Source: Bryoerythrophyllum caledonicum (lineage: Eukaryota > Streptophyta > Bryopsida > Pottiales > Pottiaceae). From it: a DNA stretch of 64,000 nt. Of the stretch, positions 35,901-56,900 are shown piece after piece. Within the stretch, counting starts at the first letter, position 1. Each line of letters starts with the position of its first letter. The stretch spans positions 17,363,845-17,427,844 of the forward strand of contig OZ020524.1 in assembly GCA_963971425.1 (NCBI GenBank), given 5' to 3'. The notes under the pieces are model-generated. The model saw nothing but the letters and a program-made list of their open reading frames with translations. It was not told the DNA's origin and did no database searches. Both the position numbers and the translations under genes were made by a program.

Positions 35901-38900
35901 TGCTTACCATCGTAGTTTGAAATACTCATAAGTTTATTTTACTCTTTCAAGCCCAAAGTAGGATTTAGACTAGTAAATTGAAGAATCTCAACAACTATGG
36001 GTCATAAACACCAAATCATGTAATATCTCATCCTTCAAAGGCATTCTTGTTATGTATTTCATGTTGTTAAGTGATTGCATACATGATGTTGGTTTATAGC
36101 ACTCAATCTATTGTGTATAATAAGCTTTATTTATTCAACATTTTGATGTGTTCATACATACTAGAGCTCTTTGTTTGATGTCAAAGTATATTGAATCAAG
36201 TCATTATAATTTTTGATTTTCTTCTATTTGTATGTAGAATAAGCCATATATTTTATTCAAAAAAATTAATTCTATATTTTTTGAGATAGTATGATTCATA
36301 TGTCTTAAAATGAGGAAAATTAGTTTTATTGTGAAAATAATATGAAAATATTTAGATGATTGATTGTTTCTATGATAGATAAAGTAATGAAAAATTGGAA
36401 TGACTTTCAAACATATAAAAATTATGGTTCTAGAATATTTTTCTTTGAATTACCCTAATACATGGCAAAAAATTTCCTATGATGGGTTGAATTCACAAAC
36501 AATTACATATATCAAAGTTTTATTTGAACCACGATCCTTCACTTTCTTTTTGATATTGTCACATCACTTATGTACCTCTAAAATGTGGTGTGCAATGTCT
36601 TAATATTATGTGAACCATAATGTTAGACCTTGTGTGGTACAAAAGATGATATTGAAGAATGTCTATTCATTTGTCTTTTTCAAATGAGAGACGGGAAAAT
36701 GTAAAATATTTTGAAAATTTTATAAATTCCCCCGTCTCTCAAATAATTCAATAATTTTGCATTGAAATCATATAATCACAAAATTATTGAATTATTGAAT
36801 ATTGTGATTAATATTGAATTCTTGAAAAAGATGAGATACCATGAATTATGGAATAATAAAATATCATAATTATTGACTTCATTACAAATGAATACTCACT
36901 TGTATATCCATTATGCCCTCTGAGCAATTATGAATCTGTACACATTTTAAATTTTGACATTATTGATGTTTCTAAATTACATTTATACTTACAAAAAATT
37001 ACAATGTAGAGACTCTATAATTTAACATCAAAAGTTATTTATTCAATTTTGAAATTATTCATTTTTTAGAAACTATTTTTTCATTAAAATTAAAATAAAG
37101 TCATCTATAAAAATAAATTTGTTGATACGTTGTAGTAATCTTCTTTTTCTATCATAAAGTGGTAGATGAGTATATTTTAAAATCTTTTGTTGTTTAATTA
37201 TGTCAATCTCTATTATGTACCAGCTGTCTCTACATATGTATATAATATTTTATTATTAATATTAAATTTTTTCTATGTATATGTGTTTGTAGTTGAAAGA
37301 TAAAATGCTTTATTATAATGGAATTGGTTTAGATTCTAAGTTTTGAGCAAGACTATACCAAATAATGATATATCTTTAGATTAAAAAAGTCAACAATGTA
37401 GAAGTTCCAATTTCTTATCAATGTTTTGGCCAAATTACTACAAAGCCATGGAACTAAAATTGGATATTTTTAGGTATTTTTATTGTCAAAACTCTATAGT
37501 TATATTTGTTTAAAGTAAAGGCATTTGACTATTTTGTAACTCATTGTAGTTTTGGAAATCAAAAAAGAAACTAGTAATTTGACATAGATATTGAAACCTT
37601 AAATCTATATTGGATCAATGATGTTTTACAAGTAGAAGAAAATTTTACATGATTCAAATAAATGATTTTTTTTTTTAAAGTAATATTTTGAAGAAAAAAT
37701 GATGCCAATTGGGTTTGTCAATGTGTATTAAAAATGGCCTTACTTTATTTTTATATACAACTATAATAATATTTCTAGCTAAACCAATTTAGTCAACAAT
37801 CATCAATTCTGACAAAAATATTGGTTCTATAGTATTCATCTATTGAATTTGTTAATTCAATTCTAATGTTTCACCTTTGATTTTCATTTTTCTCTATAAG
37901 GATGATTTTCAAACTGCATATGTGTAGACATAGACTCTCAATTGACCTTCAATAAATAAATGTTTTTGTAATGGTTTATAAAAGGGAAAAGGGAACAGGG
38001 GTTTGGAAAAGCCTTCATCTTTGGTTGTACAGTAGGGTGACATTCAAATTGGCGTTTGGGCAATTCCAGGGATGGTGTCCCACACTGCTGCCAACTTTGA
38101 CGCCCTCCACAGGGCTGAAAAATTGTTCTTTTACCCTGAAATTTTGGGAACAACATCACCTCTATGTTAAAAACATGCATACCAAATTTCAAGTCCAGAG
38201 GACTTATAAAACAAAAGATATTAAAAATTAACCACCATGGGGTAGATGTGAGAAAAGTTTCTCAACCGCCAACTTTGACACCATCCCAAGGATTGAGGAA
38301 ATTTTTTTTGCCCATGGAATTTTTGGAGTGAGAACACCTTTATGTTGATTACATGTGTGGAAATTTTCAAGTCCAAAAAATGCACAAAAAAAATCACATC
38401 CCAAATCTACCAACATGTGTAATTGTGAGAAAAAAAGGGAAAAACCATTTTACTACTTCCAACTTTGACACCCTCCCTAGGATTGAGGGTTTGTTATTTC
38501 AACATGAAATTTTTGACACATGGTAACTTTTACGTTGATAACATGTGGGAAAATTTTCAAGGCCAAAAAATGTATTCAAAAGAAGATATTCAAAATCTAC
38601 TAACATGGGGGTTAGTTGTGAGAAAAGTTTCACAGCTGCCCACTTTGACACCCTCCCAAGAATTCAAAAAAAATTATTTGTCCATGAAATTTTGGGTATG
38701 AAGTCACCTTCACGTCAAATACAAGTGTGGAAAATTTCAAAATCCAAAAGATTTACACAAAAAACATATACCAAGTCTACCAACATGTATTGTTGTGACA
38801 AACAAAGGGGAAAGTTTACCACTACTTCCAACTTCAACACCCTTCCTAGGATTGAGTTTTTGTTGATACATAATGAAATTTTGGCCACAAGATCATCTCT

Positions 38901-53900: not shown

Positions 53901-56900
53901 TACTTCCAACTTTGACGCCCTCCTTAGGATTGAGTTTTTGTTGATACATAGTGAAATTTTTGGCACAAGATCATCTCTATGCTGGTAACATGTGGGATAA
54001 ATTTCAAAGCCAAAAGACACACATAAAAAAAGTTATTCCATATCTATCAACATGTGTAACTATGATAAACAATTTGAAGGTCATATTGAAAATGTCAAAA
54101 TATCTTTGACACCTCATGCTTTTTCATTGAACTCAATCATGTGAGTAAGCCACCAAACATAAATGCTTCTCAAAAAGATCAATAACATCTAAATGAAGAA
54201 GTGAAGAGGTGTTCCATGCAGAAGAATCCACTTGGCCATAAAGTGTGCATTAGACACATGACAAAATTTTTCTTCTAAATATCTATTGAACACTATGTAA
54301 AGGGAATGGTGTGTGTGATTTGTGATAGACTGAATGTTGAGACAATCCTCAAAATAGGGAGTGTTGTATTGTGGGATGCATGAGTGTTGATTCACATTGG
54401 GCATACATGATGAGTGATTAAGAGCAAAACGATTTTTCATGTATGCATATGGGCTTGTGTTTTGGCGACCCTTCTCTCTCCTCTCTGCTCCAACGCCTTG
54501 GCTCCCTTCTCTCCCCCTTGCTCTGCTCCAGCCCTGTTCTCCTTCCTCTGCCAATTGTCACGTGTCAATCCTACAACCCCCTTTGCTCTGCTCTAGCCCC
54601 TTGGCCCCCTTCTCTCCCCCTTGCTCTGCTCTAACCCCTACTCTACTACTGTGGCTAGCATCACGCACTCTATAAGTTTATGATGGAAATTTCAGATGAA
54701 ATTCGTGCTCGCATCATAGGTTTGAGTGAGGGAGGATTTACAGGAGTTCAAATTGCAGCTACTATTGGAGTTCCTATTAGAACAGTTACAAGGTTAGTAA
54801 AAACATTTAGAGAAGATGGAACCTACAAGCGCAAACCTTGCGGTGGAAGTCACGCTAAAAAGCTTAGTGATAGAGATGTTCGTAGAATTGTGCATTACTC
54901 AAAAATTCATCGTTGCTCTTCACTCTCAGATATTACCAATGCATGTCCTACTCAAGTGTGTAGACGTACTATTCAAAGGGTCTTACATAAAAATGGCATT
55001 TTTAGTCGAATTGCAGTCAAAAAACCTTTTTTGACACCTCGTCACATGTCTCAACGATTAGCTTTTGCTCAGAAGTACCGTGGATGGAGTGCAAAAGAGT
55101 GGGAGCGTGTTGTTTGGACAGATGAATCTACTTTTGAAATTGGAAAAATTCTCGGCAAATTCATGTTTGGAGAAGTGCATACGAGCGTTATTCATCAAGT
55201 TGTCTAGCTCCTACTTTTAAAAGTGGGAGGACTTCTTTAATGATTTGGGGCGCATTTGCCGGAGAACAAAAGTCAGAACTTGTCTTTATGCCTAAAGGTC
55301 AACGTTCTGCTAAGGATTTTATAGAAGTGGTTTACGATGCCAAATTAATTCATTTCATGGGTCAAATTCCACAAGGAGTGCTTATGGAAGATGGGGCACC
55401 CGTCCGCAGGAGAAAAATATGTGAAGAATGGAGACAAAGCCACCTTCTCGAAAAGCTCAACTGGCCTGCAAACTCTCCCGATCTCAATCCAATCGAGAAC
55501 GTTTGGAGGATGTTAAAAGATGTTGTACAACATGGCAAACAATGCCCTAGAAGCTTAGATGTGTTGAAGGTAGTTCTCGAAAGAGAGTGGAAGTTAGTCA
55601 ATGGTACAAAGCTCCTTCAACTATGTCATTCTATGCCCTCTAGGTTACTAGCAGTGATTGACGCTAATGGAGGACATACACGTTGGTAGATATGGAATAA
55701 CTTTTTTGTGTACATCTTTTGGCTTTGAAATGTATCTCACATGTTACCAGCGTAGAGATGATCTTGTGCCAAAAATTTCACTATGTATCAACAAAAACTC
55801 AATCCTAAGGAGGGCGTCAAAGTTGGAAGTAGTAAAATGGTTTTCCCCTTTGTTTCTCAAAACTACACATGTTGGTAGATTTAGAATATTATTTTTTGTA
55901 TGGGTCTTTTGGACTTGAAATTTTCCACACATGCAAACAACATAAAAATGTTTTTGCTCCAAAAATTTCATGGGCAAAAAAAATTTCCTCAATTCTTAGG
56001 AGGGTGTCAAAGTTGGCAGCTGTGACACTATTCTCACAACTATCCCATGTTGGTAGATCTTGCATAAGTTTTTTTGTGTAAGTCTCCTGGACTTGAAATT
56101 TGGTATCCATGTTTTCAACATAAAGATGATGCTGTCCCCAAATTTTCATGGTAAAATAACAATTTCTCAGCTTTGGGGAGGGTGTCAAAGTTGGCAGCAG
56201 TGTAGGACACTATCCCTGGAACTACTAAACGGCCAATTTGAATGTCACCCTATTGTACATTAGAGAAAGAAATAAGGGAGAGAAAATATGAGGTTGGAAT
56301 TCTGCAAAAAAAATCTCTGAAAGTTTTTATTTTATTTTCATGAGGTCTTCCACTTTTTATAGTTGGAAAATCATCATTAATTTTTTTGTGCGTGTGTTAA
56401 TCATGTATTTTAAAACTATGTATCAAAAGTTAAATACATAAATTTTTTTTGTACATGGAGTTGAATTTTGGCAAATATAAGTGCTCAAATTTCCAAAACA
56501 AGAGATTTTAAATGATATGTATGTATCGATACATTCAATGTTCTTTCTTTTTAATGCAATATCATTTTATTGGGACAAATTTACTTTACACCTGTTAAAG
56601 GGCCAAGACCATTGAAATCAATATTTTTATAAGTGTTACTATAAAGATAATCCATTTTCTTTGGTTGTGGTTCTTGGTCCATGGTGTGAATTGTCTCTTA
56701 AATTATTTCCTTTTGAAATCCAACTTATGATAGCGGTTGTATGTTTACTTGATTTTACTCTTGTTTTATCATGAATCAAAGCGGAAATCTAATTAGAATA
56801 TAAATCAACTTTAAGCACATTCATTATTGTTGAAAAGATTATTAAGATGGATGTGTTGCTTTTTCTTACAATGATAGTAACATAGGAAAACAATTTTTTT

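Follow-up and report, generated by a model that had tools for sequence, protein, structure and literature searches.

Tc1-like transposons with arms of tandem repeat units in the moss Bryoerythrophyllum caledonicum

What kind of transposon carries terminal arms that are themselves arrays of tandem repeats, and what might such arrays do? Two elements raise this question in a 64,000-nucleotide stretch of the genome of Bryoerythrophyllum caledonicum (GenBank assembly GCA_963971425.1, contig OZ020524.1, positions 17,363,845 to 17,427,844, forward strand), which we call the window and whose coordinates we count from its first base. A first-pass annotation of this DNA had described both as Tc1-like transposons with a short box marking each tandem subunit, giving five subunits in each arm of element 1 and three in each arm of element 2, and we found the boxes at the positions that it gave. 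The explanation that we favor, and consider probable, is that these are cut-and-paste Tc1 (DD34E) transposons that have acquired a fold-back architecture, with the boxes acting as repeated transposase sites. Taken together, our results describe a real and abundant form of Tc1 element with repeat-array arms, a structural parallel of the Drosophila element Galileo.

Element 1, the five-unit transposon, occupies 38030..41741 on the plus strand (3712 bp) and has TA on both sides (38028-38029 and 41742-41743) within TGTACA. Its left arm (38030..38978, plus strand) contains five units in the order 1-A-B-A-B, and its right arm (40793..41741, minus strand) is a perfect inverted copy. The two are 100% complementary over 953 nt (38026-38978 with 40793-41745), including the shared TGTA/TACA flanks. 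Since 4 nt of each 953-nt arm match are target, the arm proper measures 949 bp rather than the 946 bp first reported. The left-arm boxes (plus strand, span 38091..38845) lie at 38091-38108, 38269-38286, 38459-38476, 38639-38656, and 38828-38845, and the right-arm boxes (minus strand, span 40926..41680) lie at 40926-40943, 41115-41132, 41295-41312, 41485-41502, and 41663-41680, with box-to-box spacings of 178, 190, 180, and 189 bp. Element 2, the three-unit transposon (53477..56255, plus strand, 2779 bp), also has TA on both sides within TGTACA. Its left arm (53477..54055, plus strand; units 1-A-B) has boxes at 53538-53555, 53716-53733, and 53906-53923 (plus strand, span 53538..53923), and its right arm (55678..56255, minus strand) has boxes at 55809-55826, 55999-56016, and 56177-56194 (minus strand, span 55809..56194), spaced at 178 and 190 bp. 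These arms are 98% alike over 559 nt, match at 543 of 560 positions in a slightly longer comparison, and reach ~579 bp once a further matching stretch is included. Upstream of the gene, the interior of element 1 holds a 32-bp tandem repeat in three copies (39349-39467), none of which is listed for element 2; the region upstream of the element 2 gene includes a CT/GC-rich stretch in which a 52-bp repeat occurs twice (54483-54637).

Each element encodes a transposase frame on the plus strand, at 39795..40802 in element 1 (HTH_23, HTH_Tnp_Tc3_2, and DDE_3) and at 54683..55689 in element 2 (HTH_23, HTH_Tnp_Tc3_2, and DDE_3 in two pieces), with profile matches that exceed the curated cut-offs. Neither window copy retains one full frame: element 1 has a TAA stop at 39945-39947, and element 2 has a frameshift between about 55138 and 55207. 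Only two solved structures matched, namely Sleeping Beauty (5cr4, E = 5e-28) and Tc3 (1u78, E = 1e-4). The second D and the E are separated by 34 residues in both window copies and in an open copy elsewhere (L033), the transposase is ~335 amino acids (aa) long, and the elements end in CA(G/A)T...A(C/T)TG (CAGT or CAAT) with TA on both sides. Domains, structure matches, and residue spacing agree with the original DD34E assignment, and by these sequence features the elements classify as Tc1-like with a fold-back architecture. Among the profile matches of the window transposase, which were to HTH and DDE_3 only, there was no THAP or P-type domain, and the domain and end analysis revealed neither a transposase of Mutator-like elements nor a ~9-bp duplication. 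The last transposase codons and the stop (40793-40802 and 55678-55689) lie within the right arm's innermost unit, where a CTACCAACATGT-like stretch is read backwards.

To place the two elements among their relatives, we searched the assembly of 437,360,962 bases in 894 contigs; the resulting repeat counts are lower bounds. The box, with at most one mismatch, occurs 8951 times (4469 + 4482). This abundance is not due to chance, because the reversed pattern occurs once. Element ends (25 bp, at most one mismatch) were found 1294 times (638 + 656; control, 0), which, were every end paired, would correspond to about 650 copies in two subfamilies. In a sample of the first 100 exact boxes, which form 37 clusters on contig C1 up to 9.17 Mb, all 42 pairs of same-strand neighbors less than 800 bp apart fell into three spacing classes: 177-178 bp (20 pairs), 189-191 bp (16), and 367-368 bp (6). 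The 95 exact ends listed on C1 allowed 36 pairs to be formed, 27 of them spanning 2526-2872 bp and 9 spanning 3249-3849 bp. From 4170 candidate transposase matches we scored 137. In this set, 128 had 92-100% identity, and 73 of them had a stop-free open frame of 336 aa or more; the other 9 had 82-83% identity, and 5 of these were open in the same sense. Open frames at such high identity suggest that the family has spread recently. Within the window itself, blastn with six query elements (E 1e-5) found no further copy.

We compared individual copies from the window and from 20 of the 37 clusters, plus one cluster fetched later. Sixteen clusters were left out, as were copies whose two ends were not both located (L011, L012, L013, L018, L021, L023, L024, and the left one of L020). 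In the window and the first 20 clusters, thirteen coding-type elements had both ends: three with five units, seven with three units, and three that were more divergent (L027, L016, and L028). A transposase match was present in all 13 and was partial in L016, L020, and L028. Arms without periodicity, or other copies with simple unique inverted repeats, had been named at the outset as findings that would speak against repeat-array arms. We found the ~180/190-bp periodicity, and none of the 26 coding-type arms has fewer than two boxes; in 12 of the 13 elements each arm has three or more, and the arms of L016 have three and two. A second type consists of complete ~1.3-kb fold-back elements (L009, L017, and L022) with unequal arms of five and two units, in which the only trace of a transposase (L009 and L022) is one 18-aa match at E = 0.45. 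Their terminal sequence diverges after CARTA, and the first box still lies 52-62 bp inside (six ends of three elements). The fold-back end pattern, which fits L022 best, has 561 genome matches (272 + 289; control, 1), a count of ends and not of complete copies. The same unit thus occurs in coding three-unit, coding five-unit, and gene-less short fold-back forms within one genome, and the suggested resemblance to Foldback elements is confirmed insofar as the long tandem-repeat arms are able to fold back.

How are the arrays built? The arms consist of ~180-bp units that align along their whole length and not at the box alone. In element 1, units 2 and 4 (identity, 0.78) and units 3 and 5 (0.77) are more alike than the neighbors 2-3, 3-4, and 4-5 (0.71-0.73), so the AB-AB dimer of this arm is real, though weak. 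The arms of the two elements differ by one 369-bp dimer, gained in element 1 or removed in element 2. In a sliding comparison, the element 2 arm tracks the element 1 arm up to the third box and then jumps by +369 within or just after it, in keeping with the earlier proposal that the length difference equals one dimer. The longer B unit, with ~12 bp more before the box, is innermost in six aligned arms with at least three units, though in L009 in part only. The two long fold-back arms that we aligned have the order 1-A-A-A-B. The alternation of ~179- and ~190-bp spacings that the first-pass annotation had proposed holds for the five-unit coding arms and fails as a general rule; strict alternation is a property of those arms only.

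The position and conservation of the box suggest what the units may be for. In all 26 ends of the 13 coding-type elements, the first box starts 60-61 bp inside, and further boxes follow along the arm at 177-178 and 186-190 bp. We measured conservation in 28 units from eight arms of six elements, using complete arms only and thereby avoiding the bias of selecting units by box matches. The box was the most informative 18-mer of the unit (1.66 bits versus 1.02 elsewhere), and conservation reached ~11 bases before it and ~10 after it. Position, repetition, and precedents in other transposons support the view that the boxes may be repeated transposase-binding sites. Two further ideas about the arms were rejected. 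One was that the terminal sequence is the box in inverted form; the alignment outperformed shuffles in element 1 (0.56% of 5000 reached it) and was unconvincing in L027, L028, and L016. Helical phasing of the boxes (178 bp as ~17 turns and 190 bp as ~18) fits the coding families and is at odds with spacings of 173-175, 183, and 193 bp in other copies.

The precedents come from several superfamilies. Within the wider Tc1/mariner group, Tc4 and Tc5 of Caenorhabditis elegans have a fold-back form and are not known to have unit arrays of this kind. Galileo (P superfamily, Drosophila) likewise has long tandem-repeat arms; the first footprint of its transposase domain covers 18 bp, from +63 to +80, and further sites lie in two internal repeats (PMC3688188). 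That footprint was measured, whereas the corresponding position of the box here, +62 to +79, comes from sequence. The site occupies two of four internal repeats in Galileo-G and each unit of the arms examined here, and the Galileo transposase is a THAP-domain P-type protein, unlike the Tc1 transposase of our elements (PMC3688188). Because the two transposases belong to different superfamilies, the likeness would be convergence. A word search of PMC3573991, on Galileo in Drosophila mojavensis, for conversion or homogenization returned no match in the text available. Closer in kinship are Bari1, Bari3, and other direct-repeat Tc1-like elements with repeated 18-bp sites per end (PMC3828361, PMC4877112, PMC4120734). 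Each Bari1 end has three 18-bp repeats bound by its transposase (PMC3828361, PMC4877112); the Bari sites lie within ~250 bp, in contrast to three to five boxes in 579-949 bp here, each in a full ~180-bp unit. The moss Physcomitrella has the DD34E Tc1-like elements PpTc1 and PpTc2, with CAGT ends, TA, and a 338-aa transposase close to the ~335 aa found here. They differ in having 33-bp terminal inverted repeats (TIRs), lengths of 1.58-1.71 kb, and 85 and 22 copies, compared with arms of up to 949 bp and ~650 copies, if paired, in our case (PMC4054914). Angiosperm Tc1-like copies are mostly single and fragmented. Tetris, a fold-back element of Drosophila virilis, has arms in which ~220-bp tandem repeats vary in number, with unequal exchange; homogenization of repeats within copies was suggested there and is seen here as concerted arms (see below). 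No coding copy of Tetris was found, however, its target duplication is 8-10 bp, and its authors suggested a Mutator origin (PMC4079207). Plant Mutator-like elements with tandem TIRs share multiplied terminal repeats, and long Mutator TIRs have binding sites, but they belong to the Mutator superfamily and carry whole TIRs in tandem (PMC3310237). The open-access literature, judged mostly from search listings, yielded no Tc1 element with comparable arms, and we found nothing on such arms in the portions consulted of a survey of miniature inverted-repeat transposable elements (PMC12550479).

We next consider where the elements insert. TG precedes the TA in 968 of 1078 exact ends, and, with TG and TA fixed, CA comes next in 968 of 1041. 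Most insertions thus target TGTACA, which is restored on either side of the element. The convention for the superfamily takes TA as the duplication and CA...TG as the element ends (PMC4054914); the duplication here may accordingly be TA, and a 6-bp duplication of TGTACA also fits. Each insertion provides a TGTACA on either side of the element, so a new element can land beside an old one. We found 15 end-to-end junctions that share a single TA, of which 12 join a CAGT-type to a CAAT-type end and three join like ends. A rough hand estimate, from ~220,000 TGTACA sites extrapolated from an element-rich sample, predicts ~2 junctions. An excess of such junctions is likely, though not firmly measured. 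Some ends that lack TG may themselves be junctions of this kind. At the right flank of L032 (C1:7696086), a five-unit copy abuts an L028-type end-like sequence across a single TA.

We turn now to the near identity of the two arms within a copy. In eight five-unit copies, the arms differ from each other at 0, 1, 0, 5, 0, 12, 0, and 11 of ~945 sites, and the copies differ from one another at 7-25 sites. Across 1778 columns of their interiors, 120 changes are confined to a single copy and 20 sites are common to two or more copies. This predominance of one-copy changes indicates a single source from which the copies radiated, with ~0.84% private change in each. For the arms, we dropped gapped columns and placed columns with different new letters in both arms (one each in L032 and L036) in neither class. 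Had the arms changed independently at that rate, 126.6 private changes in one arm would be expected, and we saw 22; private changes carried by both arms of a copy numbered 35 versus 0.12 expected by coincidence. Coincidental both-arm changes reached at most 3 in 20000 draws, and the shared changes include transversions. The seven three-unit copies, whose arms differ by 2-4%, gave 45 one-arm changes versus 91.5 expected and 12 both-arm changes versus 0.10 expected. The two arms of one copy therefore evolve in concert, and five-unit arms look more homogenized than three-unit arms.

Could the arms simply be alike because the insertions are young? In five of the eight five-unit copies the arms differ at 0-1 positions in 945 bp, and many frames are open, as youth without homogenization would predict. 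Those same five copies nevertheless carry 10-26 private interior changes in the 1778 columns, and the 35 changes found in both arms of one copy contradict youth unless each copy had its own source with equalized arms, which would itself be homogenization; we regard this account as improbable. An artefact of assembling or polishing inverted repeats is less probable still. The arms of a palindrome can be mis-polished, the window contains a 200-N gap, and the assembly is in 894 pieces; yet the same assembly resolves arm differences of 2-4% in the seven three-unit copies and at 5, 12, and 11 sites in L032, L034, and L036. A more serious rival, though in our judgment an unlikely one, is that the arrays are passive: long palindromic arms would lengthen and shorten through slippage and unequal exchange, the box would be kept for some other use, for example as a promoter, as a chromatin boundary, or to escape silencing, and the outermost unit alone would serve transposition. 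Consistent with this, whole units are conserved across families together with stretches other than the box, such as CCAAATTTCAAGGCCA, the two families differ in unit number by one entire dimer, and the fold-back end pattern occurs 561 times while its three complete copies have five and two units. Passive arrays do not readily account for a box that outranks every other 18-mer of the unit, for constant spacing in 42 of 42 neighbor pairs from 37 clusters, or for the retention of at least two boxes in 26 of 26 coding-type arms, and the related element Bari does use repeated 18-bp sites bound by its transposase. Finally, most described fold-back elements seem Mutator-like (PMC4079207), and one could imagine a Mutator- or P-type fold-back family that had captured a Tc1 gene. 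We give this idea almost no credence, given insertion at TA/TGTACA and not with 8-10-bp duplications as in Tetris, the CA(G/A)T...A(C/T)TG ends, and the presence of a Tc1 transposase match, partial in three, in all 13 coding-type elements with both ends.

Several observations weigh against the interpretation that we prefer, in which the boxes are repeated transposase sites, insertion is mostly at TGTACA, and the arms of a copy are homogenized. The whole unit is conserved between families at 70-86% per interval with few indels, which makes the box a peak on a conserved unit, and another role for that unit is possible. At the target, variants of the outer TG make up 110 of 1078 ends (10.2%) and those of the inner CA 73 of 1041 (7.0%), figures that do not separate a 2-bp from a 6-bp duplication; among the inner variants listed on C1, six of six change CA to TA. 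Homogenization is not universal, as the arm differences of L032, L034, and L036 indicate. One-arm changes are about as expected in L034 and L036, and the three-unit copy L025 has nine versus 4.7 expected. Moreover, the ratio of nonsynonymous to synonymous change (pN/pS) among five-unit copies is about 1.04. Most change therefore arose after each lineage was free of selection, and homogenization in place is indistinguishable from homogenization at successive moves of defective copies.

The preferred reading, of Tc1 transposons with repeated transposase sites in fold-back arms, suggests the following sequence of events. The two HTH domains of the transposase would bind the core of each unit, about CAC..CTG-box-CAAGGATTGA. 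Each arm could then recruit many transposase molecules, which would draw the two ends together and improve both specificity and affinity, as has been proposed for the repeated sites of Bari and Galileo. The paired ends would be cut at CA...TG and joined at TGTACA. Changes would be copied between arms, for which the simplest route would be gene conversion, either in the folded-back palindrome or during repair of a break from the other arm, and unequal exchange between units would add or remove a whole dimer at the box, giving rise to the three- and five-unit forms. Loss of the gene would leave short fold-back elements, presumably moved in trans.

The window and assembly show a few other features. 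A simple-repeat stretch at 29932-30666 gives rise to long low-complexity frames on both strands, the 200-N assembly gap lies at 31448-31647, and an Rfam scan of the window gave no match at the gathering threshold. CCCTAAA (TTTAGGG) telomere arrays, the repeats found in plants, stand at the first bases of the large contigs C1 and C12 (L029 and L030), and the start of C2 reads N. An rbcL frame appears bryophyte-like.

What, then, do these elements add to the biology of Tc1 transposons? The new findings are the concerted evolution of arms and insertion mostly at TGTACA with end-to-end insertions. It has been suggested that fold-back elements may arise from different transposon lineages by gene loss and lengthening of the ends (PMC4079207). 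The path to the fold-back form can be read stepwise here, because one genome holds coding three- and five-unit forms, a number of them with open frames, and gene-less forms with the same unit. Hundreds of comparable copies make arm homogenization measurable, and the match in site position with Galileo (+62 versus +63) makes a clear biochemical test possible. We also entertain, tentatively and with more doubt than conviction, that a plant Tc1 lineage independently evolved the plan of Galileo, with a first site ~62 bp in, further sites on repeats of nucleosome length, fold-back conversion that maintains matching binding arrays in the two arms, exchange of whole dimers at the box, near-exclusive insertion at TGTACA, and end-to-end pile-up. 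If that were true, the size of the array would be a tunable control of transposition.

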